From the NCBI GenBank assembly GCA_005882115.1, contig VBEG01000061.1, forward strand, positions 1 through 35,389: a stretch of 35,389 bases of DNA, read 5' to 3'. Made by a program: the position numbers and the translations under genes. Positions 4,369 through 34,238 of this stretch are shown piece by piece; within the stretch, counting starts at the first letter, position 1; each line of letters begins with the position of its first letter. Source of the stretch: Chloroflexota bacterium (GTDB lineage: Bacteria > Chloroflexota > Dormibacteria > Dormibacterales > Dormibacteraceae). Under the pieces are notes generated by a model. It saw only the letters and a program-made list of their open reading frames with translations, had not been told where the DNA came from and searched no databases.

Positions 4369-4995
4369 GTGGCCGTGGCACGGCGAAGGCTGCGGCCCAA
4401 GCGAGACCGCACCATCGAGTCGGAGCTCAAGTTTCGGGTCGCCGGCCCTCGTGACCACGCGACCCTGCGGACGATGCTTCGCAAACGCGAAGCCCAGCTG
4501 GTTGGACGCTACAAGGAAGAGAACTTCAGGTTCAGCGGACCCGGAAAATCCACGCGCAACACGACACTCAGGCTCAGGGTGCTCAACGGCGGACCTCGCG
4601 GCGTGCTGACCGCGAAAGGCCCGGCCACGTTCGTGGGTGGTGTGAAGATCCGCGAGGAGACCGAGGTCGAACTCGCCGACGTGCACGCCACGCTGGATCT
4701 CCTCCAGCAGCTCGGCTTCCGGGTCGGCTGGACGTATCCGAAGACGCGGTCGATGTGGATGCTCGACGGCGTCGCGGTCACTCTTGACGTCCTCGAATTC
4801 GGATGGTTCGTCGAGCTCGAAGGACCGACGACCGTGCTACCCGAGATGGCGCGTAGTCTCGGCCTCGACCCGAACAAAGCGCTCCGAGACAGCTACTCGG
4901 TGATGGCGAAAAAGCATCAGCAGCAGAAGCAACCCACGAAAGCGAAACCGACGCCGGTGGTTACTCCGCCCGCGGCGGCGGAGGCGCAGGCTTAG
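4369..4995 (+). CDS. CYTH-domain protein (class IV adenylate cyclase / triphosphatase type)
   Basis: The product is a 208-residue protein. The N-terminal part holds the CYTH signature ExExK as ESELK (Glu17, Glu19, Lys21). It is followed by the alternating charged strands of a triphosphate tunnel (TLRLRVLNGG, LTAKGPA, REETEVEL, VTLDVLEFGWFVELEG). Such proteins hydrolyse or cyclise triphosphates (thiamine triphosphate, tripolyphosphate, or ATP to cAMP); sequence alone does not tell which. The last 30 residues are a Gln/Lys/Pro/Ala-rich, probably disordered tail. It starts with GTG 12 nt after the CoA-binding gene, so it is likely in the same transcript. Its 3' end overlaps the convergent aldehyde dehydrogenase gene by 35 nt; that overlap is the low-complexity tail of both proteins. 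Confidence 0.85.
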   Translation: MAVARRRLRPKRDRTIESELKFRVAGPRDHATLRTMLRKREAQLVGRYKEENFRFSGPGKSTRNTTLRLRVLNGGPRGVLTAKGPATFVGGVKIREETEVELADVHATLDLLQQLGFRVGWTYPKTRSMWMLDGVAVTLDVLEFGWFVELEGPTTVLPEMARSLGLDPNKALRDSYSVMAKKHQQQKQPTKAKPTPVVTPPAAAEAQA

Positions 4996-6401: not shown

Positions 6402-8480
6402 GTGGCCCGAGCACCCGTGAAGAGGCGCGCAGCAGGCGCGTCCGTCAGGCCGGCAGGCAGCCCTTCCGTGGCCCCGGCCACGCCGACCGACGGGCTGAGG
6501 CGGGTCGCCATGGAGGCGGTCACACCGGAGATCGACGGCGGACGGTTCCCGGCCAAACGGGTCGTCGGCGAGACCGTGGTCGTCGAGGGGGATATCTTCA
6601 CCGACGGCCAGGACGCCCTGGCCGCCGTCCTGCGCTATCGGCACGAGGCCGCGACGCGATGGATCGAGACGCCGATGGCTCCCCTGGTCAACGACCGCTG
6701 GCGCGGTGAGTTCCCGGTCACCGAGCTCGGTCGCTACGTCTTCACGATCGAGGCCTGGGTGGACCACTTCGAGACCTGGAGCCGCCAGCTCGCCAAGCGC
6801 CTGGCGGCGGGTCAGGATGTACGCCTCGAGCTCGAGGTCGGCGCTCGCATGATCGAGGAGACGGCGGCACGCGCGGACGGGACGACCGCCGACTCGGCGC
6901 GACTGCGGGAGCTCGCCAAGTCGCTGCGCATTCCAAACCCCCACCCGGCGGCTTCGCCGCCGACCTCCCCGGCGAGCGGGGAGGTGAACGGGGAGCTGAC
7001 CACGCTTATGCGGCGCTACGCCGACCGCGCCCAGGCGACGACCTACGCGCGCGAGGTCGAGGTGTTCGTGGAACCTCAGAAAGCGCGCTTCAGCACCTGG
7101 TATGAGCTGTTCCCGCGCTCCACGGGCCCCGCAGGAAAGCACGGCACATTCAAGGATGTCGAGCGCCTGCTGCCGGAGATCGGGCGGATGGGCTTCGACG
7201 TCCTCTACCTGCCCCCCATCCACCCCATCGGCCGCACCCATCGCAAGGGCGCCAACAACAAGTCCGCACAGCCCGGCGAGCCGGGAAGCCCGTGGGCGAT
7301 CGGATCCGAGGAGGGCGGCCACAAGGCGGTGAACCCAGAGCTCGGCACCCTCGCCGACTTCCGCCGCCTGGTCAAGACCGCCGCGGGCGAGGGCATCGAC
7401 GTGGCGCTCGACATCGCGTTTCAGTGCTCACCCGATCACCCCTACACGCGCGAGCATCCCGAGTGGTTCAAGCACCGGCCCGACGGCTCGATCCAGTACG
7501 CGGAAAACCCGCCGAAGAAGTACGAGGACATCTACCCGTTCGACTTCGAGACCGAGCACTGGCGAGGGCTCTGGCAGGAGCTTCTGTCGATCGTCCTCTA
7601 CTGGGCCGAGCAAGGGGTCAGCGTGTTCAGGGTCGACAACCCGCACACCAAACCCTTCGCGTTCTGGGAGTGGCTGATCGCCGAGCTGCGGCGTGCGCAC
7701 CCCGAGGCGATCCTGCTTTCCGAGGCGTTCACGCGACCGAAGGTCATGTACCGGCTCGCCAAGGTGGGGTTCAGCCAGTCGTACACGTACTTCGCGTGGC
7801 GCAACACCGCGTACGAGCTGTACCAGTACTTCACCGAACTGTCCCAGCCGCCAATCCGCGACTTCTTCCGGCCGAACCTCTGGCCCAACACCCCCGACAT
7901 CCTCACCGAGTACCTGCAGACCGGCGGCCGGCCCGCGTTCCAGGCCCGGCTGATCCTGGCTGCCACGCTCGGCGCGAGCTACGGAATCTACGGCCCGCCC
8001 TTCGAAGCGCTGGAGGGCCGTCCGCGCGAACATGGCTCCGAGGAGTACGTGGATTCGGAGAAGTACCAGCTGCGAAACTGGAAGCGCGACCCGAGCATGA
8101 GTGAGCTCGTGGGGATCGTCAACCACATCCGGCGCGAGAATCCGGCGCTCCAGAGCGACCGCGGCCTGCGATTTCACTTCACCGAGAACGAGCAGCTCCT
8201 GGCCTACTCGAAGAGCACGCCCGACAATGCGAATGTGATCCTGACCGTCGTCAACGTGGACCCCCACCACGTGCAGCGCGGGATGGTCAACCTTCCGCTC
8301 GAGGAGCTCGGGATCGAGATTGACCGGTCCTATCAGGCGCATGAGCTCATCAGTGGAGCCCGCTACCTGTGGAACGGACCGCGCAACTTCGTCGAGGTCA
8401 ATCCGCAGTCGATGCCGGGCCAGATCTTTCGTTTCCGCCGTCGCGTGCGCAGCGAGCACGATTTCGAGTACTTCTTGTGA
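6402..8480 (+). CDS. glgE: Alpha-1,4-glucan:maltose-1-phosphate maltosyltransferase
   Basis: GlgE (GH13_3) transfers maltosyl units from alpha-maltose 1-phosphate to the non-reducing end of an alpha-1,4-glucan, releasing phosphate. The N-terminal domain starts at EAVTPEIDGGRFPAKRVVGE (about 38-57). The (beta/alpha)8 domain begins at WYELFPRS and contains YLPPIHPIGRTHRKG. The nucleophile Asp412 lies in FRVDNPHTKPF and the acid/base Glu441 in LLSEAFTRP; their 29-residue spacing equals D394/E423 of the Streptomyces enzyme. Residues 181-197 are a Pro/Ala/Ser-rich insert encoded by a palindromic repeat. I give the GTG at 6402 (692 aa); the ATG at 6510 (656 aa) is a strong alternative because it begins at the conserved domain and leaves room for a divergent promoter. 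The stop codon overlaps the next start (GTGA), which implies coupling with treS-mak. Confidence 0.96.
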   Translation: MARAPVKRRAAGASVRPAGSPSVAPATPTDGLRRVAMEAVTPEIDGGRFPAKRVVGETVVVEGDIFTDGQDALAAVLRYRHEAATRWIETPMAPLVNDRWRGEFPVTELGRYVFTIEAWVDHFETWSRQLAKRLAAGQDVRLELEVGARMIEETAARADGTTADSARLRELAKSLRIPNPHPAASPPTSPASGEVNGELTTLMRRYADRAQATTYAREVEVFVEPQKARFSTWYELFPRSTGPAGKHGTFKDVERLLPEIGRMGFDVLYLPPIHPIGRTHRKGANNKSAQPGEPGSPWAIGSEEGGHKAVNPELGTLADFRRLVKTAAGEGIDVALDIAFQCSPDHPYTREHPEWFKHRPDGSIQYAENPPKKYEDIYPFDFETEHWRGLWQELLSIVLYWAEQGVSVFRVDNPHTKPFAFWEWLIAELRRAHPEAILLSEAFTRPKVMYRLAKVGFSQSYTYFAWRNTAYELYQYFTELSQPPIRDFFRPNLWPNTPDILTEYLQTGGRPAFQARLILAATLGASYGIYGPPFEALEGRPREHGSEEYVDSEKYQLRNWKRDPSMSELVGIVNHIRRENPALQSDRGLRFHFTENEQLLAYSKSTPDNANVILTVVNVDPHHVQRGMVNLPLEELGIEIDRSYQAHELISGARYLWNGPRNFVEVNPQSMPGQIFRFRRRVRSEHDFEYFL
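6938..6994. repeat. Palindromic GC-rich repeat inserted in frame inside glgE
   Basis: Two adjacent perfect hairpins are present: CGGCGGC/GCCGCCG (6946-6952 and 6956-6962, 3-nt loop) and ACCTCCCC/GGGGAGGT (6963-6970 and 6978-6985, 7-nt loop). They are preceded by CCCCCACC. The region encodes GlgE residues 181-197, a Pro/Ala/Ser stretch in a linker of the N-terminal part. The same order of parts occurs in reverse orientation at 30730-30810, so this looks like a dispersed REP-like element that has become part of a protein. Confidence 0.6.
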
Positions 8481-11400
8481 TCACCACGCCCCAGCGCGCC
8501 AAGCGCAGGATCGAGACGTCGCAGCTCGAGGAGGATCCGCTCTGGTACAAGGACGCGCTCATCTACGAGCTCCACGTGCGGGCGTTCTACGACAGCGACG
8601 CCGACGGCGGCGGTGACTTTCGCGGCCTGGTCGAGAAGCTGCCCTACCTGCAGGAGCTCGGCATCAACGCGCTCTGGCTGCTGCCGTTCTATCCCTCGCC
8701 TCTACGCGACGACGGCTACGACATAGCCGATTACACCAACGTGAATCCGATGTACGGCACGCTGGGCGATGCCAACCAGTTGGTAAGAGAAGCGCACCGG
8801 CGCGGCATCCGGGTGATCAACGAGCTCGTGTGCAACCACACCTCGGACCAGCACCCCTGGTTTCAGCGCGCGCGGAGGGCGAAGCCGGGAACCGCCGCAC
8901 GTGACTTCTACGTGTGGAGCGAGACCAACCAGAAGTACCAGGACGTGCGGATCATCTTCAAGGACTTCGAGACGTCCAACTGGACCTGGGACCACGTCGC
9001 GAACGCCTACTACTGGCACCGTTTCTACTCGAGCCAGCCCGACCTCAACTTCGACAACCCCAAGGTCAAGGAGGCGATCTTCAAAGCCCTCGACTTCTGG
9101 ATGGACATCGGGGTCGACGGCGTCAGGCTCGACGCCGTGCCCTACCTGTTCGAGCGCGAGGGCACCAACGGCGAAAACCTGCCCGAGACGCATCAGTTCC
9201 TGCGCGAGCTGCGCCGCCATGTCGACAGCAACTACCGGAACCGCATGCTGCTTGCCGAGGCCAACCAGTGGCCCGAAGATTCGGTCGCCTATTTTGGACA
9301 GGGCGACGAGTGCCACATGTCGTTCCACTTCCCGCTAATGCCACGGCTCTTCATGGCGATCCGCATGGAGGACAGGTTCCCGATCGTCGACATCCTGGCC
9401 CAGACCCCCGCCATTCCCGACACCTCGCAGTGGGCGCTCTTCCTGCGCAACCACGACGAGCTCACGCTCGAGATGGTCACCGACGAGGAGCGCGACTATA
9501 TGTATCGCGCTTACACGCAGGACCGCCTCGCCCGCCTGAACCTCGGCATCCGGCGCAGGCTCGCACCCCTGCTCGGCAACGACCGCCGGCGCATCGAGCT
9601 GATGAACGGGCTCCTTTTCTCGCTGCCCGGCACCCCGGTCCTCTATTACGGGGACGAGATCGGCATGGGGGACAACATCTTTCTGGGCGACCGCAACGGC
9701 GTGCGCACTCCGATGCAATGGAGCGCCGACCGGAACGCCGGCTTCTCTCGCGCCAACCGCCAGCGCCTGTACCTGCCGGTCATCACCGACCCTGAGTACC
9801 ACTACGAGACCGTCAACGTCGAGGCCCAGCAGGGCAACCCGCACTCGATCTTCTCGTGGACGAAACGGCTGATCGCGCTGCGCAAGCGCCACCGCGCGTT
9901 CGGACGCGGCACACTCGAGCTGCTGCGGCCGGAAAACAGAAAGGTGCTTGCGTACGTCCGCAGCTACGAGTCAGAGCAGATCCTCTGCGTCGCCAACCTG
10001 TCGCGCTTCCTGCAGGCGCTCGAGCTGGACCTGACCAAGTGGAAGGGCCTCGTTCCCGTAGAGCTCTTCAGCAGCAACGAGATGCCGGTGATCGGCGACA
10101 ACCCGTACTTCCTGACCCTCGGCCCGCACGCCTTCTACTGGTTTGCCATGCAGCCGCGCGCGGCGGCGAGCATACAGAGCGACGGCGCCCAGGCGGCCGC
10201 CGTGCTGCCCGAGGTGCGTCTTGCCGGCGGTTGGGAGTCGGCCCTGGCCGGAGGCGCGAAGGAGCGGTTCGAGAGCGTGCTCGTCCGCTACATCCCGCAG
10301 CGGCGCTGGTTCGCGGGCAAGGCCCGGCGCGTGAAGACCGCGACGATCAGCGACGTCATCACCGTGCCCGGAGCGGAGAACTACGCGTACCTGACCTCGG
10401 TCGTGATCGGCTACGCGGACGGCGACCCCGACACCTACATGCTGCCCATCGCTTACGCCAATCCCGCCGAGGCGTCTCACATCATCGAGCGCTGGCCACA
10501 TGCGGCGATCGCGTGGGCCCGCAACCCAGGTGAGGAAGCGCGCGGATTGCTCTACGACGCCCTTGGACCGGCCAACTTCGCCGAGGCGATGCTCGGATCG
10601 ATCGCGCGCCACAAGCGTGCCGCCGGCGGCGCGGGGACACTGGTTGGCTCGACAACACGCGCGTTTGCGCGCCTGCGCGGGCCCGAGACGGTGCGCCTCG
10701 AGGCGCAGCTCTCGATCGCCGAGCAGAGCAACAACTCGGTGATCTTCGGCGAGCGCCTGATGCTGAAGGTCTTCCGCCGGCTTGAAGAGGGGGTGAACCC
10801 GGAGCTCGAGGTCGGGCGTTTCCTGACCGAAAAGACCAACTTCAGCCAGATCGCGCCGCTTGCAGGCACGCTCGAGTACCGCCGCCCGACGGGCGAACCG
10901 GTCAGCATCGCGATCCTCCAGGGCTACGTGCCGAACCAGGGCGACGCCTGGCAGCACACGCTGAACACGGTCGCGCACTACTTCAACGCGCCCGAGCTGG
11001 TGGGCATGCAGCCGCCCACGTTGCCCCGAAGCCTGCTCGAGGCAAGCCGGCTGGAGCCCTCCGAGCTGGCCGTGAAAGCGATCGGCGGCTACCTGGACTC
11101 GGCGCGTCTGCTCGGCCGCCGCACCGCCGAGCTGCACGCCGCGCTGTCCTCGGACCCGACCGATCCGGGGTTCGCGCCCGAGCGGATCTCGCCCCTCGAC
11201 CAGCGCTCGATCTACCAGTCGATCAGCGGTCTGTCAATGCGGGCTATCGACCTCCTCCGGACGCAGGTGAACAAGCTGCCGGCCGACGCGAAAGAGGAAG
11301 CGCGGAAGGTGCTGGAGCTCGACTCCCGGATTGCCTACTTGCTGAAAGCCTTCCTGGCCCGCCGCCTGAACACGACTCGCATCCGCGTGCACGGCGACTA

Positions 11401-11829
11401 TCACCTCGGCCAGGTGCTCTACACCGGGCACGATTTCGTGATCATCGATTTCGAGGGCGAGCCGACCAGGTCCCTGTACGAGAGGCGGCTCAAGCGCCTG
11501 GCCATGCGCGACGTGGCCGGGATGCTCCGGTCGTTTTCCTACGCAAGCCAGGCGGCGCTTCGCTCGCAAGAGATCGCCCCGGAGAGATTGCCCGAGCTGC
11601 ATGCATGGGCGCGCTTCTGGGTCGATTCGGTGTCCGCCGTATTCTTGAGGAGCTACCTGACGACCGCGGGCAACGCGTCGTGGGTATCGCAGAACCAGGA
11701 CGACCTCGAGCTCCAGCTCAACACCATGCTTTTGGAGAAGGCCCTGTACGAGCTTCGCTACGAGCTGAACCTGAGACCTGACTGGGTGCGCATCCCTCTG
11801 CGGGGCATCCTCGATCTTGTGACGCCTCC

Positions 11830-11833
<4 letters not shown>
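8477..11833 (+). CDS. treS: Trehalose synthase - maltokinase fusion (TreS-Mak)
   Basis: This 1118-residue protein has two enzymes. Residues 1 to about 560 are a GH13 trehalose synthase that interconverts trehalose and maltose: nucleophile Asp219 in GVRLDAVPYL, acid/base Glu261 in LLAEANQWPED, transition-state stabiliser Asp327 in FLRNHDELTLE. Residues from about 610 to the end are a maltokinase of the Mak/Pep2 type, beginning near VRYIPQRRWFAGKAR, with catalytic-loop Asp974 in RVHGDYHLGQV and Mg-binding Asp991 in IIDFEGEP. The kinase makes alpha-maltose 1-phosphate from maltose and ATP, the substrate of the neighbouring GlgE. I start at the GTG at 8477, which overlaps the glgE stop as GTGA; a longer frame from 8369 would run far into glgE. 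The fusion is known in many actinobacteria and other bacteria. Confidence 0.95.
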
Positions 11834-13752
<1,919 letters not shown>

Positions 13753-17292: not shown

Positions 17293-18354
17293 CTAGAGAA
17301 GGGCCTGCTCGCTTTCGCCGTCGAAGAAGTGCAACCCTCGTGTGTCGAGGCCGAGGCGGACACGGTCACCAGGCGCCACCGCCATGCGGGGATCCACACG
17401 CGCGGTGAGCTGGTCGCCGCCGACCGAGCCGTAAAGGTACTGGTCGGAGCCAAGGCGCTCCACCACGTCGACCTTCATGTCGAGAGTCGTCCCGCCGTCC
17501 GTGGTGCGGTCCGTGACCGCTTCGGGACGGAATCCAAGAGTGCCCTTGGAACCAGCAGGTAGCGCCTTCGGCAGCTTGACCTCGAAGCCCGAGGCTTTGG
17601 CCGAGCCGTTGGTCACGTTGGCCGGGATGAAGTTCATGGTCGGCGTGCCGATGAAGCCGGCGACGAAGAGGTTGGCCGGGTGGTCATAGATCTCACCCGG
17701 GGTGCCCACCTGCTGCAGGATGCCCGCGTTCATGATCGCGATCCGGTCGCCCATCGTCATGGCTTCGACCTGGTCGTGGGTGACGTAGATGAACGTCGTC
17801 TGGAGGTCGCGGTGCAGCTTCTGCAGCTCGACGCGCGTCTGGCCACGCAGCTTGGCGTCCAGGTTCGACAAAGGCTCATCGAGCAGGAACACCTTAGGGC
17901 TGCGCACGATGGCCCGACCCAAGGCGACGCGCTGGCGCTGGCCGCCCGACAGGGCTCGAGGCTTGCGCTTGAGGAAGTTGTCGAGTCCGAGAATGCGCGA
18001 CGCGTTGCGCACCCGCTTGTCGATCTCCGACTTCTTCATGTGCGCCATCTGAAGCGGAAAAGCCATGTTGTCGTACACGCTCATATGCGGGTACAGGGCG
18101 TACGACTGGAAGACCATGGCGATGTCGCGGTCCTTGGCGGCGACATTGTTGACGACGCGGTCGCCGATGAGGATCTTGCCTTCGGTGATCGCCTCCAACC
18201 CGGCGAGCATCCGGAGCGCGGTCGATTTGCCGCAGCCGGAAGGACCGACAAGGACCATGAACTCCTTGTCCTTGATGTCGACGTTGAAGTCCTTGACGAC
18301 GGTGACATCGGCCGTGTAGCGCTTGACGACGTGGTCATAAGTTACTGATGCCAT
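17293..18354 (-). CDS. ugpC: Sugar ABC transporter ATP-binding protein (MalK/UgpC/AglK type)
   Basis: This 353-residue ATPase energises an alpha-glucoside-type importer at the inner face of the membrane. It shows Walker A GPSGCGKST (37-45), Q-loop Gln83 in MVFQSYALYPHMSV, signature LSGGQRQR (135-142), Walker B VFLLDEP (155-161), D-loop SNLDAKLR and the H-loop His in YVTHDQVEA. The C-terminal part after about residue 235 is the MalK-like OB-fold regulatory domain (FIPANV, GFRPEAV, DVVERLGSDQYLYG). The ATG lies 4 nt after the permease stop, with AGAGAG just upstream. Such ATPases are often shared between several sugar importers, so the symbol describes the family, not a proven glycerol-phosphate role. 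Confidence 0.93.
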   Translation of the reverse strand: MASVTYDHVVKRYTADVTVVKDFNVDIKDKEFMVLVGPSGCGKSTALRMLAGLEAITEGKILIGDRVVNNVAAKDRDIAMVFQSYALYPHMSVYDNMAFPLQMAHMKKSEIDKRVRNASRILGLDNFLKRKPRALSGGQRQRVALGRAIVRSPKVFLLDEPLSNLDAKLRGQTRVELQKLHRDLQTTFIYVTHDQVEAMTMGDRIAIMNAGILQQVGTPGEIYDHPANLFVAGFIGTPTMNFIPANVTNGSAKASGFEVKLPKALPAGSKGTLGFRPEAVTDRTTDGGTTLDMKVDVVERLGSDQYLYGSVGGDQLTARVDPRMAVAPGDRVRLGLDTRGLHFFDGESEQALL

Positions 18355-18358
18355 CTCT

Positions 18359-19051
18359 CTATCCCTTCACAGAACCGGCAAGAATGCCGCGGACGAAGTA
18401 ACGCTGGAGGCTGAGGAACACGATCAGCGGCACGATCATCGAGAAGAAAGCCGCGGCCGTCAACAGGTTGGAACCGGCGCCCAGCGAAGTCGTCAGGTTC
18501 GCAAGGTTCACCGTCATCGGCGCCACCTCGGCCGAGCTCCCGACGTAGATCAGGGCCACCAGCAGGTCGTTCCACACCCACAGGAACTGGAAGATCACCA
18601 GCGAGGCGATCGCCGGCACTGAAAGGGGCATCACCAGCCGGAAGAAGACCGTCAGGGTGCCCGCGCCGTCGATCTCCGCCGACTCGAAGAGGTCGCTGGG
18701 AAGCGCCCTGAAGAAGTTGGCCAGCAGATAGATCGAGAACGGCAGCCCGTAGCCGGCGTGGGCAAGCCACAGCGGCACCCAGGGCAGGCCGGGGATTCCT
18801 GTTGCCTCCAGGTTATCGGTCGTCCAGTGGAGGTTCTGGACGTAGAAGTGGAGGACCGGGATAAAGGTCAGCTGAAGCGGTACGGCAAGCAGACCGACCA
18901 GCGCAAGAAAGATGTAGTTGCGGCCCGGAAAGTTCATCCATGCGAATGCGTAGGCGGCGAACGCGCCAATCGTCACCGGGAGGACCGTGGCTGGGATCGC
19001 GATCATGAAACTGTTGAAGAAGGCCTGGCCAAGGTTGCTCTGCTCGAGCAT
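18359..19051 (-). CDS. Sugar ABC transporter permease, AglG/MalG-like (5' end disrupted)
   Basis: This 230-residue open frame contains most of a MalG-family inner-membrane permease. The EAA loop that contacts the ATPase is ESAEIDGAG (123-131). The stretches FAAYAFAWMNFPGRNYIFLA, VPLQLTFIPVL, WLAHAGYGLPFSIYLL and QFLWVWNDLLVALI, and the ending RYFVRGILAGSVKG, are close to the AglG alpha-glucoside permease of rhizobia. Five membrane helices remain. The family has 45 or more further N-terminal residues with an extra helix. The frame does continue upstream with GWWSAFSNPTQFTIDNYTAM, exactly the expected sequence, but contains no ATG, GTG or TTG and no hydrophobic segment. The annotated ATG 19051 is therefore only the first in-frame start of a damaged gene. 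The importer may be non-functional unless the break is an assembly error. Confidence 0.8.
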   Translation of the reverse strand: MLEQSNLGQAFFNSFMIAIPATVLPVTIGAFAAYAFAWMNFPGRNYIFLALVGLLAVPLQLTFIPVLHFYVQNLHWTTDNLEATGIPGLPWVPLWLAHAGYGLPFSIYLLANFFRALPSDLFESAEIDGAGTLTVFFRLVMPLSVPAIASLVIFQFLWVWNDLLVALIYVGSSAEVAPMTVNLANLTTSLGAGSNLLTAAAFFSMIVPLIVFLSLQRYFVRGILAGSVKG

Positions 19052-19188
19052 CGCCGTGTAGTTGTCGATCGTGAACTGGGTCGGATTCGAGAACGCGCTC
19101 CACCAACCCGTGACGCGGACAGACGGTCCGCGATCCAGCGGGGCGAGAAGGTTGTCGGCACGGGCCGCGCGGCGGCCGCGACGGTCAT
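19052..19188 (-). pseudogene. Remnant 5' end of the AglG-like permease gene, out of frame
   Basis: The ATG at 19188 overlaps the stop of the preceding permease gene by 4 nt (ATGA), just where the AglG start should be. Its frame reads MTVAAAARPVPTTFSPRW and then an Arg/Ser-rich nonsense tail. The rest of the permease (LLAPLDRGPSVRVTGWW, then SAFSNPTQFTIDNY) continues in a different frame. Neither frame encodes the first transmembrane helix, so a deletion whose length is not a multiple of three is the simplest explanation, located somewhere between about 19135 and 19160. Confidence 0.6.
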
Positions 19189-20204
19189 CGGCGCGCCTCC
19201 ACGGCGCGGAACTGTCTCAGGTTGAAGATCAACACCGGAACCACCGCGATGAGCAAGATGATAGCCACAGCGCTTGCGCCTCCTGAGTTGCCCGCAGTGT
19301 ACAGCTGGTTGTACATGCGGTAGGCGAGTACATCGGTGCCATAGTTGCCGGCCGTCATCACGTACACGACGTCGAAGGCCTTGAGCGCAAAGATCACAAG
19401 CGTGGTACCCACGACGACGATCGTCGGCATCATCAGCGGAAAGATCACGCGCCGGAATATGGTCAGCTCCCCGGCGCCATCAACGCGCGCGGCTTCCAAC
19501 AGGTCGGCGGGGATGCCTTTCAGCGCCGCTGAGAGGATGACCAACGCAAAGCCCGTGATGCCCCACGTCGCGGCGCCGATCAACGCCAGGTTGTTCAGAA
19601 TGTTGAACGTCGGCGTGGGCCATTGGTCTTGGAGCCAGGACACAGGGTCGTGATGCAGGACGAACGTGACCAGGGCGTTCATCGTGCCCAGCTGCGATTC
19701 ACCTGGGGACTGGTACTGGTACATGAAGTTCCAGATCACGCCCAGGGCTACCGATGAGATCGCCATCGGCATAAAGATCAGCGACTTCACGATGTTCTCG
19801 TACAGGACGCGGTCAAACAGAACGGCGAGGATTAGGCCAAACGCAAGTGTGAACAGCGTGTAAAAGATCAGCCAGAAAAAGACGTTGTTGCGGATGGCGA
19901 CCCAAGCACCGCCGGTTGGGAAATTCGCGAACTGTGACTCGTAGTTCCCGAGCCCGATGAAGTTACCGTTGTTGTTCTCGAAGCTCTGGAACACCGTGCC
20001 GATCGCCGGCAACAGAAGATATGCCGCAACCAGGAAAAGGGCAGGCCCGACCCAGAACCAGGGCCGGACCTGCGGTCGACGTTTGTCGGACAAGCGGCGT
20101 ACGAGGAACTCGCTGCCGACGATGTAGGCCCCGATCAGCGCCGGTACGCCGAGGATGACCACCACGAGCGTCGGTAGGTCGGTCAGCAGTACGCCGAAGT
20201 CCAC
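19185..20204 (-). CDS. Sugar ABC transporter permease, AglF/MalF-like
   Basis: This 339-residue inner-membrane permease has about eight hydrophobic segments (roughly 10-32, 50-70, 106-130, 140-160, 205-228, 254-276, 305-327). The coupling EAA loop is EAARVDGAG (237-245) followed by FRRVIFPLMMP. The N-terminal helices and the conserved SLIFMPMAISSVALGVIW and YQYQSP agree with AglF-type alpha-glucoside permeases. The GTG start at 20204 has a clear AGGAGA 8-9 nt upstream, one of the few good ribosome sites in the window. It lies 18 nt after the solute-binding protein gene and overlaps the AglG remnant by 4 nt. It should pair with the AglG-like permease to form the channel. Confidence 0.92.
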   Translation of the reverse strand: MDFGVLLTDLPTLVVVILGVPALIGAYIVGSEFLVRRLSDKRRPQVRPWFWVGPALFLVAAYLLLPAIGTVFQSFENNNGNFIGLGNYESQFANFPTGGAWVAIRNNVFFWLIFYTLFTLAFGLILAVLFDRVLYENIVKSLIFMPMAISSVALGVIWNFMYQYQSPGESQLGTMNALVTFVLHHDPVSWLQDQWPTPTFNILNNLALIGAATWGITGFALVILSAALKGIPADLLEAARVDGAGELTIFRRVIFPLMMPTIVVVGTTLVIFALKAFDVVYVMTAGNYGTDVLAYRMYNQLYTAGNSGGASAVAIILLIAVVPVLIFNLRQFRAVEARR

Positions 20205-20222
20205 GCTTTCTTCTCCTACACC

Positions 20223-21527
20223 TCAGGACGATTTATAGGCGGTGGCCTGAACCTGATCCAGGGTCGCCAGGATGCTGTCGAGCTTGCCCTGGTTGGTGAC
20301 GAAGTCGAGGCAAGCCTTCCATGCGGCCGATCGCATATCGGCCGGCATCAAGTCGGTCGCGTCGTACTTGCCGATCTTGGTGTCGACCAGGATCTGGGCG
20401 CTCTCCTTGGAGATCGGGTCCGGGTATGAGTCGAGCGGTGTCTGCTTGTTCGGCGAGATCTTGCCGCCCTTCTTCACCCAGATAACCTGCGCGTTGGCCG
20501 TGGTCAGATAGTTGAGCAGCTTGCGGGTCTGAGGCGAGTCGTGGAACATCGACCATGCATCACCCGAGACGACGTGGGCGCCCGCATAGGAAGCGGTGAT
20601 ATCGGGAAGCGGGAAGAAGTTGAAATCGGTCACAGGCTGGAGGTTCGGATTCGCCTCCTGGAAGAACGTCGTGATGAACGACGCCTGGTTGTGCAAGTAG
20701 CACTTCGGCGGGTTAGTGAACAAGGGGTTGCCTCCCGTCTTGAAGCTCGTATTGGTGATCCCCTTGCTGCCGCCAAACACGTTGCTGTCGTCGCCCGGCC
20801 CAAGGACCTTGCCCCAGGTCGTGAACGCTGCCTTGATCTCAGGCGAGGACCACTTCTGGGTGCCCGCGACCCACTTGTCGTAGACGTCGGGACCGGACTG
20901 GCTGAGCACGATCTCCTTGAGCCAGTCGCTTCCTGGCCATCCATCGTCCGCACCACCACTCTTCAGGGCGACGCACCACGGGGTGGTGCCCGTGCCCTTG
21001 ATCTGGCTTTGCAGCGTCACCATGTCGTCAAACGTCTTGGGCACGGTGTAGCTCTTGGCCTGGAATGCCTTGACGTTGTACCAGATGAGTCCCTTTAGCG
21101 AGACCCACGAGTAAACCTGGTACAGCTTGCCGTTGATGGTGCCCAGGTCGATCCAGCTCTGCGAGTAGTTCTGCTTCAGCTGGCTCATATCGATCTTGTC
21201 ATCGAGCGCGATGACCTTGCCCTGCTGCGCGAACTGGGTCAGCAGCTGTGGGTTGGGAGCGGCCGCAAGGTCAGGCGGATTGCCAGCCGCAACACGCGTT
21301 CTCAGGACCGCGGAAAGGTCCCGGGTCGACTCGTACTGGACCTTGATGCCAGTCGAGTCTTCGAATGGTTTCAGCACTGACAAGAAATTGGCCTGCTCAG
21401 TGCTGGCCCATTCCGCTATGACCTTCACCGAGCCTGCGTTTTGCGTCGAGCCTCCCGCGCAGCCGACGGTCACGAAGAGTGCCATCAACGGCACAATCAG
21501 GCTGCGCCTATACCACTTAGCGCGCAT
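20223..21527 (-). CDS. Sugar ABC transporter solute-binding lipoprotein (AglE-like)
   Basis: This is a 434-residue extracytoplasmic binding protein. The signal peptide MRAKWYRRSLIVPLMALFV ends in a lipobox-like VTVGC with Cys23 as the lipidation site, followed by an AGGSTQNAGS linker. The mature protein has the cluster-B sugar-binding fold (VIAEWASTEQANFLSVLKPF, GIKVQYE, NPPDLAAAPNPQLLTQFA, DLGTINGKLYQVYSWVSLKG, VVSGDAWSMF). The length and the order binding protein-F-G-K match AglEFGK, importers of trehalose, maltose and sucrose-type alpha-glucosides. The ATG has GGGGGA about 8 nt upstream. The 87-nt gap after lacI contains a TAGAAT (21587-21582) that could be a weak -10, but no good -35 and no copy of the lacI operator, so the importer probably depends on the lacI promoter. 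Confidence 0.92.
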   Translation of the reverse strand: MRAKWYRRSLIVPLMALFVTVGCAGGSTQNAGSVKVIAEWASTEQANFLSVLKPFEDSTGIKVQYESTRDLSAVLRTRVAAGNPPDLAAAPNPQLLTQFAQQGKVIALDDKIDMSQLKQNYSQSWIDLGTINGKLYQVYSWVSLKGLIWYNVKAFQAKSYTVPKTFDDMVTLQSQIKGTGTTPWCVALKSGGADDGWPGSDWLKEIVLSQSGPDVYDKWVAGTQKWSSPEIKAAFTTWGKVLGPGDDSNVFGGSKGITNTSFKTGGNPLFTNPPKCYLHNQASFITTFFQEANPNLQPVTDFNFFPLPDITASYAGAHVVSGDAWSMFHDSPQTRKLLNYLTTANAQVIWVKKGGKISPNKQTPLDSYPDPISKESAQILVDTKIGKYDATDLMPADMRSAAWKACLDFVTNQGKLDSILATLDQVQATAYKSS

Positions 21528-21614
21528 GGTTTTTCCCCCAATCCGATACGAGGTGGACGGCGTGTGTCTGCCTTAGTGACAATTCTATTTACCTCCCCTG
21601 AATGCTGCCGGAAG

Positions 21615-22664
21615 CTAGGTCTGGCGGCTGACCACCTCCTTGGCTTTGGAGGTCGAGCCGCGAACGACGAGGCTCGTCGCCAGCGGCTGCGGCGACTCGA
21701 CCTTACGGCCGTTCATGCGGTCGATCAGCAACCGTGCGGCGAGGCGACCTTTCTCGACGATCGGCTGGTGGACCGTGGTCAGCGGCGGGTATGTCCAGGC
21801 CGCCATGGGCAGGTCGTCGAACCCGACGACCGAGAGATCGGCAGGTACCCGGAGCCCAGATGCACGCGCCGCGGACATGACCCCGATCGCGGCCATGTCG
21901 CTCATCGCGAGCACCGCTGTGGGACGGCGAACGCCCTCTCGGAGCTGGTGAAACGCGCGGGCACCTGCCTCGACGGAGATGCCCGCCGTGACGCACTCCG
22001 GTGCGGGCGCCCCGGCGCCCGCGATCGCTGCCTCGTAGCCCGCCATCCGCCGTGCCGCGGTCGGTGTCGTCTCGAGCTGCGAGCGTGTGGGCGGCAGCAC
22101 GATGATCGCCAGCTGCGTGTGGCCGAGCTCGAGCAGGTGCCTGGCCGCCTCCTCCGCCCCACCCCTGTCATCGACGTTGACCACGGGATGCTCGGGCGAC
22201 GGATCCGAGTCGACGAGCACCGTGGGGATGCCGTTGCGGTCCAGCAATCTGAGGGCCTTGTCGTCGGGGCTGAGGCCGAGGCTGATGAAGCCGTCGACGG
22301 ACGCCTGCCTGATCGCGCTCTCCAGTGATCCGTCCAGCGGCGGCACCAACAGCAAAGTCAGGTCGTGCTCCTCGCACTGTTCGCCAAGGCCCTGCATCAG
22401 CTCGCTCAGGAAAGGGTTCGCGAAGACCGTGGACAGCCGCTGCGGGATCAAGACGCCCATGGTTCCGCTGCGCCGCATCGAAAGGGCGCGTGCGGCCGGG
22501 TGCGGCGCGTAGCCGAGGTCGCGGGCGACGCGCAGCACGCGTTCGAGGGTCGCCTGGCCCAGGTTTTCGGGGTTGTTGAACGCGAACGACACGGCCGTCT
22601 TCGAGACGCCCGCCGCGATCGCGACGTCAGCGATTGTGACCCGGGAAACCGGCGTTCCTGTCAT
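21615..22664 (-). CDS. LacI-family transcriptional regulator
   Basis: This 349-residue repressor has an N-terminal helix-turn-helix (VTIADVAIAAGVSKTAVSFA, about 9-28), a hinge helix ARALSMRRSGTMGVLIPQ and a periplasmic-binding-protein-like effector domain (VDGFISLG, PVVNVDDRGGAEEAARHLLE, VVGFDDLPMAAWTYPPLTTV). The effector is probably an imported sugar or its metabolite. The gene lies between a GH2 glycosidase and an alpha-glucoside importer. Its ATG is preceded by GGGGGG at 7 nt, and the leader contains a mirrored double operator just downstream of a strong promoter. This argues for autoregulation and control of the downstream importer, ParB-like, adk and GH15 genes. Confidence 0.93.
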   Translation of the reverse strand: MTGTPVSRVTIADVAIAAGVSKTAVSFAFNNPENLGQATLERVLRVARDLGYAPHPAARALSMRRSGTMGVLIPQRLSTVFANPFLSELMQGLGEQCEEHDLTLLLVPPLDGSLESAIRQASVDGFISLGLSPDDKALRLLDRNGIPTVLVDSDPSPEHPVVNVDDRGGAEEAARHLLELGHTQLAIIVLPPTRSQLETTPTAARRMAGYEAAIAGAGAPAPECVTAGISVEAGARAFHQLREGVRRPTAVLAMSDMAAIGVMSAARASGLRVPADLSVVGFDDLPMAAWTYPPLTTVHQPIVEKGRLAARLLIDRMNGRKVESPQPLATSLVVRGSTSKAKEVVSRQT

Positions 22665-29521: not shown

Positions 29522-30826
29522 ATGACTGACTCCCCGCGGTTTCCTGACAGCTTTCTCTTCGGCGCTGCGATCTCCGCCTACCAGACGGAGGGCGGCAACG
29601 TGAACACCGATTGGTGGTGGTGGGAGCACATCGAGTCCACACCATGCCAGGAGCCGTCCGGCGACGCATGCGATTTCTACCACCGCTACGCCGACGACGT
29701 TGCGATGCTCGCGAGCTCCGGGCTCAACTGCTTCCGCTTCGGCATCGAGTGGGCGCGCATCGAGCCGGCTGAGGGCGAGTTCTCCCGTGCGGAGCTAGCC
29801 CACTACCGCCGCATGCTCGACACCTGCGACGAGCATGGAGTGGCCCCGATCGTCACCTTCCACCACTTCACGGTCCCGAGATGGCTGCACGAGCAGGGAG
29901 GGATCGCCTCGGAGAAGTTCCCTGCCCTGTTCGAGCGCTACTGCGATCGCGCGGCGCAGGCGCTCGGCGACCGGATCGCCTACGCCTGCACGATCAACGA
30001 GCCGCAAGGCTTAGGTTCGAGCGGATGGCTGCTCGGGGTCAACCCGCCCGGGCACACCGACGACCGCGATGGCGCCCAGCGCGCGGTTGACAACCTGCTC
30101 GAGGCGCACCGGCGCGGCGCCGCCGCGATCCGCTCCCACGCGGGCGTTCCGGCCGGCGTGACACTCGCCATCCCCGACATCCAGTACGAGGATGGCGCCC
30201 AGCCGGGTTCGAGCTCGCTCGAGCTGGAATCCCGCATCAACGACTGGTTCTTGCAGCTGGCGAGTCAGGATGACTTCATCGGGGTTCAGACTTACACGCG
30301 ATTCCGATACGGGCCGGAAGGTGCGCGCAGCCCCGGCCACGACTGGAGCGACACCACGCGCGAGCTGGCGGAAACCGACCAGACAACGCAGATGGGCTAT
30401 GAGTACTACCCGCGGGCGCTGGGCGGCGCGATCCGCCGCGCTCAGCGCGCCTGCCCCGGCGTACCCATCCTGGTCACCGAGAACGGGATCGCCACCGGCA
30501 ACGACGACAAGCGGATCGCGTACATCGACTCCGCGATGCGAGAGGTCCTCGCATGCCTTGCCGAAGGGATCGACGTCCGCTCCTACATCTACTGGTCGCT
30601 GCTGGACAACTTTGAGTGGGCGCTGGGCTACGCGCCGAAGTTCGGCCTGGTGGCCGTGGACCGGCAGACATTCGCGCGGCACCCGAGGCCAAGCCTGGCG
30701 TGGCTGGGCCAGGTCGCACGAGCCAAACTCCTCCCCACTCGTGGGGAGGTGGAACTCTCCCCCGTTCATGGGGAAGTACCCGGCGTAGCCGGGGGCCGGG
30801 GCAGCGCCGGTGGGGCATCCGTGTGA
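29522..30826 (+). CDS. GH1 family beta-glycosidase
   Basis: This is a 434-residue retaining beta-glucosidase-type enzyme. It begins FPDSFLFGAAISAYQTEGG, the usual start of GH1. Acid/base Glu160 is in CTINEPQ and nucleophile Glu320 in ILVTENGIA; SYIYWSLLDNFEWALGY and KFGLVAVDR complete the active-site framework. The core ends about residue 402. The following 32 residues (starting LLPTRGEVE, ending SAGGASV) have no counterpart in the family and are encoded by a palindromic repeat, which seems to have replaced the original stop. No signal peptide is present, so it acts on imported beta-glucosides in the cytoplasm. It diverges from the MFS gene and lies 13 nt upstream of the GAF-dehydrogenase gene, so the two are probably co-transcribed. 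Confidence 0.93.
   Translation: MTDSPRFPDSFLFGAAISAYQTEGGNVNTDWWWWEHIESTPCQEPSGDACDFYHRYADDVAMLASSGLNCFRFGIEWARIEPAEGEFSRAELAHYRRMLDTCDEHGVAPIVTFHHFTVPRWLHEQGGIASEKFPALFERYCDRAAQALGDRIAYACTINEPQGLGSSGWLLGVNPPGHTDDRDGAQRAVDNLLEAHRRGAAAIRSHAGVPAGVTLAIPDIQYEDGAQPGSSSLELESRINDWFLQLASQDDFIGVQTYTRFRYGPEGARSPGHDWSDTTRELAETDQTTQMGYEYYPRALGGAIRRAQRACPGVPILVTENGIATGNDDKRIAYIDSAMREVLACLAEGIDVRSYIYWSLLDNFEWALGYAPKFGLVAVDRQTFARHPRPSLAWLGQVARAKLLPTRGEVELSPVHGEVPGVAGGRGSAGGASV
30730..30810. repeat. Palindromic GC-rich repeat forming the 3' end of the GH1 gene
   Basis: The parts are a perfect 9-bp hairpin CCTCCCCAC/GTGGGGAGG (30730-30738 and 30741-30749), a weaker CCCC/GGGG hairpin (about 30757-30774), the perfect hairpin CCCGGC/GCCGGG (30779-30784 and 30788-30793), and a GC-rich end GGTGGGGC. 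Read on the minus strand the order is CCCCACCGG, GC hairpin, TCCCC hairpins, the same as the element inside glgE. It encodes the last ~30 residues of the GH1 protein and ends shortly before the next gene. Confidence 0.6.
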
Positions 30827-30839
30827 TGATCGCCCTGCA

Positions 30840-33800
30840 TTGATCCGCCCGCCGGTCGAAGCCAACTCCGGTCTGGCCGCGGTCCTCCGCGGTGTGATCG
30901 CCGACTTCCAGCACGCCTCGGGGGCGGAGATCGTGTCCGTCTTCCTTTATGACGAGTCGACCCACACCTACTACGCCCCGTTCGCGACCGGCCAGCCACA
31001 GGAGAGCCTGCTCGACTCGCTGACCGACATGCGCGAGCAGCTGGCCCGATACCTGAACGACGAGAGGCAGGGCAAGGCGCCTGACGAGCTGGGGGTCCAC
31101 CAGTACGGCTCGACGGTCTGGCTGACCGTCACCCGGCAGCGGCTCGTGGCCCGAGACGCGCCGGCGGAGATCGATTCGACGTTCATCCGCCGTTACCAGG
31201 TGCAGTCGACGATCGGGCTGCCCCTGCTTGCCGGCGAGAGGTTCCTCGGCCTGGTCTACCTGAACTACCGAAGCAAGGAGCGCGCGCCGGACGACAACAA
31301 GCTGCGCGAGCTCGAGCGCCGGGCCGGGACCGCGGCGGCGCTCATCCAGAGCGCGCTCGAGGGCGCCGAGCGCACGGCGCTCGAGGGCTTGTCGCGCCTT
31401 ACGTCGCTCCTCACGACGCCGGTCGGCGACGCCCGCACCGACGCCAAGGAGCTGCGTCGACTGCTGTCGATTGCGCTCGCCGACCTGCTGATGGCGAGCA
31501 ACCTCGACGGCGCTGCGATCTACCAGTTCGGCCACCAGCGCTCGCACCTCGAGCTGGTCACCGCGCACCTCCGGGTGGCTGCACCGGCGCGCGTCGAGCG
31601 GGGCGACCCATCGACCGCGTGGGAGGCAGCCCTCAGCAAGACAGTCGGCGAGACCACGGCCGAATCCGACCTACATCCCGTCGCCACGTACGCGCTCGGC
31701 CAGCCCGACGAGCCTCACGGCTACCTGATCGTCGTGAGCCGCGACAGTCTTGCCACCGTCAGGCGCGCGCATGCCACCGACGAGATGCTCAAGGCGGGAG
31801 CCCAGCTGATCGGAAGCGCGCTCGCGTCACAGCGCTTGATCGCCGAGCTGGAGAACAGCAACAGGCTGCTCAGCGCGCTGGGCGACATGACGGCCGCGAT
31901 GCTGAAGCCTGGCGCGAGCCGCCACGAGGTCATCGACGCGGTGGTCGGCCACCTCACCGATTCCGAAGTCCCGGAGTTCGACTTCAACTTCGCCACCGTC
32001 TATCTGCTCGACCAACGGGAGGACGACGCCACCGTGGTGCGCATGGCGGCCGGCGCCGCCACCGCGGCGTCGATCGAGGGAACAGCACCCCACGCCGGCA
32101 AGAAAGTCCCGCGATGGGCTCTGGAGGAGGACCGCCTGCTCGCCGAGAGCGACGTCCTCGTCTACGTAGCGCGCACCTGGCAGACCGTCATCGTCGGGCC
32201 GCTGCCCGCGGGCGATCACGGGGACGTGATCTCGGGCGGCGTGCCCGTGCAGTCGACCTGGACTGAGGTGCCGGTCGTCTACACGAACGGCATGGTGCTG
32301 GGCAACGTGCTCGCGTCCCTGATCGGCGAGAAAGAGCGCGCCCGAGGCGAGGAGCCGGCGCCATTCACGCTCGCGGGCGAGGTCTTCGATCGAGGCGGGC
32401 ACAAGGACCTCATCCGCGTCTTCGTGCCATTCGGGAGCGACGCCACGGGGCGGGCGACGGGCGTGCTCGAGGTCGGTTATCACCGTTCGGACCAGCGCCG
32501 CCCGGACTGGGGCCAGGTCGAAGCACTCCGCGCGGCCGCCGGACAGCTCGCGGTCGCCGTCGAGACGGCGCGCCTGTATGAAGATGCGCAGCGCCACGCC
32601 GAGCAGCTCGAGCTCGTCGCCGACGTCAGCAAGGCGATCGCCAGCTCGATCGACCTCGAGCAAACGCTGACGCTCGTCGCCCAGAACCTGGCCCGTCTGG
32701 TCGACGCCTCGCTGTGCCAGATCGCGCTCTATGAAGAGGACCACGAAGGCTGGTACGGCGCCGCAGCCTCGGACCTCCAGGACCTCTGGCACCGGGAGCA
32801 TGCGGAACGGTCGGAAACGACATTCCTGTTCGATGTGCTGGACCGCGAGCAGCCGATCGTGGTCGACGACACGTCCACCAGCTCGCAGGTCGATCCCAAC
32901 TACGTGCGCACGTTTGGCGTGAAGTCGCTGATGGCGCTCCCCCTCATCGCCGACGAGCAGGCGATCGGCGCGGCGATCCTGGCGGAACGCACCCGCCATC
33001 GCCGCTTCACGCCTGAAGAGGTGCAGCGCGCGCAGGCGCTGGCGGTGCAGGCGGCTGTGGCGATCAAGAACGCGCGGTTGCACGCGCTGGCCGAAGAGGA
33101 GCGACACCTGCAGAAGGACTTCGTCCTGATCGGCTTCGGCCAGTGGGGCCAGAAGGCGTACCAGCACCTGCTCACGCTCAAGCAGTTCTTCAACTTCCGC
33201 ACACACGTGGTCGAGCAGGACTCGCCCGGATCGCGCGACCGCCTCGGCGTGAAAGAGGAGGAGGTGCGCACCCACGGCGACACGTTCTACTGGGACAGCC
33301 ACGGCTCCCCCGCGCGCGACCAGCTGGAGCGCGAGCTGGAGTCGAGCTCGTACGTGATCACTTACATCGCCACGCCGGCGGCCACTCACCTGCCGACGCT
33401 GGCGCGCTACTACGACCTGAGCGACGTGGTCCTGATCGAGAAGCCACTCGGCGCACCGCCGGACGACTACCGCAAGTTTCTGGACACGGCGCCAGGAGGC
33501 GTCGAGATCGTGGCCGCCGACCATTACTACTTCAAGCTCGAGGTTCGGCTGCTCGCGATGCTGCTCACCGAGGAGCGCACGCTGCGGAACTTCCTCGACA
33601 GCGTCGAGGAGATACGGATCGAGATCCTCGAGGAACAGCCGCTGACCGGCGCCGCGGCGGACATCGGCGTCATCGCCGACCTGATCCCCCACGCCTTCGC
33701 GATCATCTCGCTGCTGACGCCGATCGACCGGATCAAGCTCGACGCGACAGCTCCCCTCCTCATCGGCCGCCACGAAGGCCTGGCTGGGCAACGCGAGAGC

Positions 33801-34238
33801 TACGCGCGCATGAACGCCACCTTCGAATATCACGGCCGGTCGGTGCGGCTTGTCGCCGACGTCGGCAAGGGTGCGGAGAACGCGAAATGGATCAAGCTCA
33901 GCGGCGAGAAGCGCGCGGCCGGACGCAGCCCCAGCTACAAGTTCGACTTCGGCAAGGGGGAGGCCATCGACGGCACGCAGGCGACCGTGCGCGCCGCCGT
34001 GCGGAGGATCCGCGAGCCTGGAGTGCCCGACAACGCGCACCTCAACATGCTTCGTCACGTCATCGAGAAGCGCCACCCCGCGGTCGGCATCCTGTCGATC
34101 CGCGAGGCGATTCGCGCCAACCAGCGGGTGCGCGAGCTCGAGGCGATGGCTTCTGAGCTGCTGGCGCGCAAGGAGTGGACGGACTACCCGCTGGGCAGCC
34201 GGCCGGTGTTCGAATCCGCCGGGGTGCGCGTCAGCTGA
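30840..34238 (+). CDS. Four-GAF sensor fused to a Gfo/Idh- and G6PDH-like dehydrogenase
   Basis: This is a 1132-residue cytoplasmic protein. Four GAF-like modules are recognisable at about 1-180 (IGLPLLAGERFLGLVYLNYR), 185-340, 345-580 (with a long insertion) and 590-750 (SLMALPLIADEQAIGAAILA, then RRFTPEEVQRAQALAVQAAV), joined by helical linkers. From residue 760 a dehydrogenase follows: LIGFGQWG (Rossmann GxGxxG, 763-770), a strand with ATPAATHLPTLA, IEKPLG (866-871), ADHYYFK (Asp894, His895) and IADLIPHAF (Asp947, His951). These three resemble EKPxG, IDHYLGK and RDMVQNH of glucose-6-phosphate dehydrogenase. No kinase, cyclase or DNA-binding output domain is present. A ligand bound by the GAF part may control oxidation of a sugar or sugar phosphate (inference). 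The start is TTG 30840; GTG 30810 inside the repeat is less likely. Its 3' end overlaps the convergent GT4 gene by 8 nt. Confidence 0.8.
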   Translation: MIRPPVEANSGLAAVLRGVIADFQHASGAEIVSVFLYDESTHTYYAPFATGQPQESLLDSLTDMREQLARYLNDERQGKAPDELGVHQYGSTVWLTVTRQRLVARDAPAEIDSTFIRRYQVQSTIGLPLLAGERFLGLVYLNYRSKERAPDDNKLRELERRAGTAAALIQSALEGAERTALEGLSRLTSLLTTPVGDARTDAKELRRLLSIALADLLMASNLDGAAIYQFGHQRSHLELVTAHLRVAAPARVERGDPSTAWEAALSKTVGETTAESDLHPVATYALGQPDEPHGYLIVVSRDSLATVRRAHATDEMLKAGAQLIGSALASQRLIAELENSNRLLSALGDMTAAMLKPGASRHEVIDAVVGHLTDSEVPEFDFNFATVYLLDQREDDATVVRMAAGAATAASIEGTAPHAGKKVPRWALEEDRLLAESDVLVYVARTWQTVIVGPLPAGDHGDVISGGVPVQSTWTEVPVVYTNGMVLGNVLASLIGEKERARGEEPAPFTLAGEVFDRGGHKDLIRVFVPFGSDATGRATGVLEVGYHRSDQRRPDWGQVEALRAAAGQLAVAVETARLYEDAQRHAEQLELVADVSKAIASSIDLEQTLTLVAQNLARLVDASLCQIALYEEDHEGWYGAAASDLQDLWHREHAERSETTFLFDVLDREQPIVVDDTSTSSQVDPNYVRTFGVKSLMALPLIADEQAIGAAILAERTRHRRFTPEEVQRAQALAVQAAVAIKNARLHALAEEERHLQKDFVLIGFGQWGQKAYQHLLTLKQFFNFRTHVVEQDSPGSRDRLGVKEEEVRTHGDTFYWDSHGSPARDQLERELESSSYVITYIATPAATHLPTLARYYDLSDVVLIEKPLGAPPDDYRKFLDTAPGGVEIVAADHYYFKLEVRLLAMLLTEERTLRNFLDSVEEIRIEILEEQPLTGAAADIGVIADLIPHAFAIISLLTPIDRIKLDATAPLLIGRHEGLAGQRESYARMNATFEYHGRSVRLVADVGKGAENAKWIKLSGEKRAAGRSPSYKFDFGKGEAIDGTQATVRAAVRRIREPGVPDNAHLNMLRHVIEKRHPAVGILSIREAIRANQRVRELEAMASELLARKEWTDYPLGSRPVFESAGVRVS

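Follow-up and report, generated by a model that had tools for sequence, protein, structure and literature searches.

Does the organism whose draft genome is described here possess a complete sugar importer? The window (the whole 35.4-kb stretch of DNA analysed) contains a minus-strand cluster in the order LacI regulator, sugar-binding protein, permease 1, permease 2 and ATPase, in which the gene for permease 2 has a start signal and a permease core in different reading frames (Table 1). A sequence-only reading of this DNA left the choice between a recently inactivated importer and a segment lost during assembly, and this either/or stands: both explanations fit the data presented below and no third reading fits them better. 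The draft genome (G000) comprises 147 contigs with 3.36 Mb of sequence and has a completeness of 96.5% and a reported contamination of 2.29%.

Structure of the damaged permease gene

The loss of the first helix and of the reading frame between 18359 and 19188, as described in the sequence-only reading, was recovered with the same coordinates and frames. The start codon ATG 19188 overlaps the stop codon of the upstream permease gene (ATGA) and is preceded by a GGAGG ribosome-binding site with a duplex energy of -9.3. The frame that it opens leaves the permease, as had been claimed, and forms an ORF of 61 codons (19003-19188) with its stop at 19003. The permease frame itself reads TGWWSAFSNPTQFTIDNYTAM..., and is open from just past a TGA at 19219 down to the stop at 18359. 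It was said to have no start codon upstream of ATG 19051, and indeed no ATG, GTG or TTG occurs there in this frame; CTG (19138) and ATC (19069) are present. The further claim that no frame in between encodes a transmembrane helix agrees with a search of all six frames of 19052-19190 for a hydrophobic helix, in which the best 19-residue Kyte-Doolittle mean was 0.38.

Table 1. Features of the importer cluster and of the damaged permease gene (window coordinates).
Feature	Position	Strand	Remarks
LacI-type regulator of the cluster	21615..22664	-	intact
Sugar-binding protein of the importer	20223..21527	-	intact, 434 aa; SBP_bac_1
First permease of the importer	19185..20204	-	intact, 339 aa
Second permease gene	18359..19188	-	damaged
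Intact 5' end of the second permease gene	19117..19188	-	ATG 19188 and codons for MTVAAAARPVPTTFSPRWIADRLS (24 codons); resembles ortholog N-termini
Inverted repeat	19114..19132	.	perfect, 7 bp with 5-nt loop; arm 19114-19120 overlaps the deletion junction
Deletion junction	19111..19117	-	100 nt net missing; left flank ends at ~19117, right flank starts at ~19111
Intact 3' part of the second permease gene	18359..19111	-	TGWW... to stop; frame other than that of the start codon
230-aa ORF from internal ATG 19051	18359..19051	-	part after helix 1
ATPase of the importer	17293..18354	-	intact, 353 aa; passes NCBIfam NF008653 (UgpC subfamily), 481 bits vs 432

The 230-aa ORF contains the core of a type I sugar ABC importer permease, with the domain BPD_transp_1 (PF00528) matching residues 26-223 (E 3.4e-15) at 56.7 bits, above the curated cut-off of 26.4. 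The N-terminal helix 1 that precedes this core in six-helix permeases of the MalG/SugB type is missing from the window gene. The distance from a conserved N-terminal W to the GWW motif is 43 codons (129 nt) in each of the 15 anchored rows of orthologs, which come from 14 genomes, as compared to 29 nt in the window gene; the 23 rows considered consist of these 15, four that were set aside with a second W as anchor, and four unmatched rows including the window. Judged by this spacing, the net loss would be 100 nt if the ancestor of the strain had the usual length, which sharpens the 60-100 bases estimated in the sequence-only reading. A loss of this size takes out helix 1 and, 100 not being a multiple of three, shifts the frame. 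Both flanks and the start signal are intact, no N interrupts the contig at the junction, and 5 nt between the flanks can be assigned to neither of them. When the N-terminal part of the nearest ortholog was searched against the draft genome itself, the two flanks at the locus and a weak paralog (E 0.065) were the only matches, which speaks against a displaced copy of the missing segment. The closest paralog of the permease in this genome is 35% identical.

Comparison with orthologs

The region upstream of the permease core was read in 124 hits, which represent 101 distinct upstream sequences. Rows with an identity of at least 68% number 22 without the window (23 genomes), and 21 of these (22 genomes) possess helix 1, which has a mean hydropathy of at least 2.1 in the intact close orthologs. 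A relative with the same short permease, as the sequence-only reading suggested looking for, was not found among these 23 genomes. In the remaining one, G021 (L127, 3308-3327), which belongs to the same family, a run of 20 N lies inside the helix-1 coding stretch at a place where about 62 nt belong, as counted from the usual spacing. This run could be coincidental, and since a few stretches of the sequences are masked as N, it could also stem from masking, which looks no different from a gap in the scaffold. Orthologs of 67-71% identity in G044, G048, G052 and G060 fall outside the helix-1 comparison, and more distant upstream rows were left unscored, several of them having a long insertion before the core, with the consequence that helix 1 may fall outside the 100 residues examined.

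The importer genes surrounding the lesion were described as intact in the sequence-only reading, and this was borne out for the LacI regulator, the binding protein, the first permease and the ATPase. The order of binding protein, two permeases and ATPase is kept in all eight relatives fetched, with the ATPase of G023 cut by a contig end; compared with all eight, the binding protein and the first permease have their full or almost full length, and the same holds for the ATPase in seven of the eight. A LacI match of at least 65% adjoins the operon in five of the eight, and none was found in the stretches fetched from G018 and G031. Together with G024, the latter two carry orthologous operons that are among the closest known systems: they have the same gene order as the window, their permeases are 88-91% identical to the window gene over the permease core, and they encode helix 1, whereas the window gene does not.

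Selection on the remaining coding sequence

The remaining 230 codons contain no stop codons, and dN/dS values were calculated for the permease core by the method of Nei and Gojobori. The window core gave 0.089 with G024, 0.097 with G018 and 0.096 with G031, and the values for G024 with G018 and G031 are 0.082 and 0.079. With the distant sequences of G035, G030 and G026, the window core gave 0.196, 0.179 and 0.222, as compared to 0.162 and 0.186 for the intact distant pairs G024-G035 and G018-G035. Because the values with distant relatives are slightly above those of the two intact pairs, a slight relaxation of selection on the permease core may have occurred. Among 223 amino acids, the number of residues that differ where six others agree is 6 for G000, 3 for G024, 11 for G030 and 0 or 1 for the rest. 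By these measures the remaining permease and the other importer genes appear to be without clear decay. The lesion is either very recent or absent from the organism, and a deletion of very recent date would not yet show as relaxed selection in any case.

Other lesions in the same genome

A similar deletion was found in ychF, which encodes a YchF-type GTPase and is the only homolog of this gene in G000. It is a frame-breaking deletion of 110 nt at contig C33 ~158536-158540 (L156 ~18536-18540) and falls in the C-terminal domain PF06071 (residues 253-335 of the intact G005 protein). In 30 other genomes, G005 included, YchF is essentially full length in 26, partial in three and without a match in one; the three partial matches keep the C-terminal part. 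Among the genomes with a YchF match (29 others), G000 alone has two pieces in different frames.

Such lesions were counted in a DNA comparison of 435 kb of G000, window included, with 1.8 Mb of G005, a genome of the same genus. It covered 137 gene pairs in each direction with 45,046 and 45,936 aligned codons, an untallied number of pairs with too short a subject stretch being skipped; the permease itself is outside this count, since its best G005 match is just 56% identical. Four events were obtained in G000 and three in the reverse direction. Two of the former (1 nt and 23 nt) lie at gene boundaries, as read from the alignments, and a third (-58) lies near the end of an ORF, which leaves ychF as the one confirmed case of a like lesion in the 137 pairs. 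Two of the reverse events mirror lesions of G000 (ychF and the DUF559-type gene described below) and the other (-163) is near an ORF end. No internal frame-breaking deletion was confirmed in G005 over the 137 pairs; several candidates in both genomes stand outside the set that was examined more closely. The presence of a second like lesion does not separate technical from real deletions.

Two other counts were set aside. A tblastn gap count, with 6 of 157 groups in G000 and 5 of 173 in G005, proved unreliable. Its six G000 groups include ychF and the DUF559 gene, which stand, a CYTH gene, which is a false case, and three others, two in L154 and one in L158; two of the five G005 groups reflect the broken DUF559 ORF of the window itself. 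The CYTH gene (window 4369-4995) is in fact intact; its match was to a shadow frame of the adjacent gene. Indels of at least 25 nt between G000 and G005 numbered 18, with genic and intergenic cases unsorted and the ychF event absent from the set.

The window holds one more broken gene, at about 1826-2690 on the plus strand, which is split over frames 2, 1 and 2 by frame shifts near 2280 and 2528 and is a single open frame in G006, a genome of the same genus. The label DUF559 was taken from its G005 homolog. This lesion is smaller and says less than that in ychF, because DUF559-type genes are often lost.

Sequence at the deletion junctions

The inverted repeat at the permease junction is one of 43 with a stem of at least 7 and a loop of 3-10 in the window, and the ychF junction likewise lies at a perfect 7-bp inverted repeat. 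Arms of inverted repeats with a stem of at least 7 and a loop of 3-15 cover 2.5% of 400 kb of the genome, and both of the two confirmed junctions are located at one. This coincidence is suggestive, being a post hoc observation that was noticed afterwards and does not amount to a test. Either an obstacle to sequencing or a genuine fold-back of the DNA may lie behind the repeats; short repeats are frequently seen where genuine deletions occur. A hairpin or an extreme in G+C content was considered as the cause of a coverage hole and rejected, as the interval is average in seven relatives, where the corresponding 110 nt have a G+C rank of 0.17-0.67 and a folding rank of 0.03-0.77.

Origin of the deletion

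Assembly deletion is probably the explanation of the 100-nt loss and the best one available, because the rest of the gene is without clear decay and a second frame-breaking deletion occurs in ychF; this deletion and the run of N that G021 has at the corresponding position tilt the balance toward the assembly. We infer that the losses arose in the assembly and not in the organism. An ordinary six-helix sugar ABC importer permease of the MalG/SugB type would have lost the 100 nt encoding helix 1 during draft assembly, 110 nt in ychF may have been dropped likewise, and the living organism most likely carries an intact six-helix permease gene. A study on pseudogenes in public assemblies (PMC11017572) attributes many apparent cases to assembly errors; it concerns frameshifts and internal stops in RefSeq assemblies, leaves out metagenome-assembled genomes, and describes spurious pseudogenes which, like the gene discussed here, have a single frame-breaking lesion in an otherwise conserved sequence. 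What counts against assembly deletion is that the junction is without N and that the interval is unremarkable in G+C and folding, so that nothing of a general kind emerged that would explain a coverage hole. Such deletions are also infrequent, with one other confirmed in 137 gene pairs, and YchF could be truly broken too. The same continuity of the contig, together with the inverted repeat at the junction, would fit a genuine recent deletion of 100 nt, which ranks second and which we regard as rather unlikely. Translation from ATG 19188 would then end at 19003, no second permease would be made and the transporter could not assemble; there is no close paralog to replace the permease, and the two frame shifts in the DUF559-type gene make real gene decay in this genome possible. 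A genuine deletion has to be reconciled, however, with the lack of clear decay in the remaining permease and the other importer genes, with the similar loss in the widely conserved ychF, which suggests a technical cause, and with the N run of G021. It is scarcely credible that both deletions are real and stem from one process, in which the end of a DNA strand would fold back at an inverted repeat of 7 bp, prime the synthesis of a few bases and then be rejoined at a distance of about 100 nt, so that each junction is left with a perfect 7-bp inverted repeat.

The 230-aa protein might also be made from ATG 19051 and function as a five-helix permease without helix 1, and the Pfam core domain indeed lies wholly within this ORF. 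MetI-type permeases with five helices exist, and MalF has been reported to tolerate the loss of its first helix. Literature searches on helix-1 loss in MalF/MalG and on Dormibacterota yielded nothing usable on the former and nothing on this locus in the latter. A functional short permease is nevertheless very improbable in view of the start codon: ATG 19051 is without a ribosome-binding site (duplex energy +0.3, as compared to -5.4 to -9.7 for five other starts tested), and it sits within the overlapping 61-codon ORF. Moreover, a methionine is found at the same position inside the longer intact proteins L012, L013, L014, L019 and L028 (four genomes, L014 and L028 belonging to one), which makes it an inherited residue rather than an evolved start, and helix 1 is present in the close orthologs of all 22 genomes that could be read. 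Equally improbable is a mixed source population in which some cells have the deletion and the assembler took that path; a draft genome with some reported contamination would allow it, but neither a second copy of the locus nor a fragment with the missing segment was found in the assembly.

From the contig alone, the importer should not be called lost, nor should a five-helix permease be claimed. With ychF there is a concrete second site for testing whether errors of this kind occur in the assembly. A real deletion would abolish the second permease and hence the importer, an ordinary loss of one sugar importer; what the observation describes is ordinary.

Family assignment and genomic setting of the importer

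The sequence-only reading called the permease AglG-like. The sugar permease part of this assignment agrees with the BPD_transp_1 core, whereas the AglG label is loose and does not appear established for this protein: no NCBIfam model reaches its cut-off, with GlcU, UgpE and MalG as the best, and the best-scoring relatives of solved structure are SugB proteins. The structures 8ja7_B and 7cad_B of SugB, the permease of the trehalose importer LpqY-SugABC, align with residues 8-230 (E 2.5e-24) and 9-230 (E 5.2e-24) of the short ORF, respectively. The SugB system consists of the same parts as the system described here, i.e. a binding protein, two permeases and an ATPase, and SugB has 62-67 further N-terminal residues before the aligned part, which is the part that is cut in the window gene. 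MalG of E. coli (PDB 2r6g_G) belongs to the same family and shares the core, with ORF residues 12-230 aligned to 86-296 (E 9.6e-10) and 85 N-terminal residues ahead of the aligned part; the NCBIfam MalG model gives the window permease 67.6 bits, far under its cut-off of 261.

The closest permeases come from other genera (91% identity in G024, 88% in G018 and G031). In 16 genomes of the same genus that were searched, the identity is 55-57% in 14, 79% in G012 and 31% in G015. In the window, a GH1 gene (29537-30733) and a GAF-domain gene (30834-34217) encode proteins that share 84-85% identity with those of the same-genus genome G005. Because the permease is nearer to other genera while these two genes match the same genus, an exchange of the importer operon (window 17293-22664) may have occurred here.

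The window also encodes GlgE, a ThuA domain protein and a GH15 enzyme whose N-terminal domain is trehalase-like, and such neighbours would fit trehalose or maltose-type substrates for the importer. Apart from this, it was observed that three genes are adjacent to one another at 6402-13752, one for GlgE, one for a protein of 1154 amino acids that has alpha-amylase and maltokinase-cap domains, and one for a GlgB-like protein, and that, besides the sugar importer and ThuA, the window holds GFO/IDH/MocA genes.
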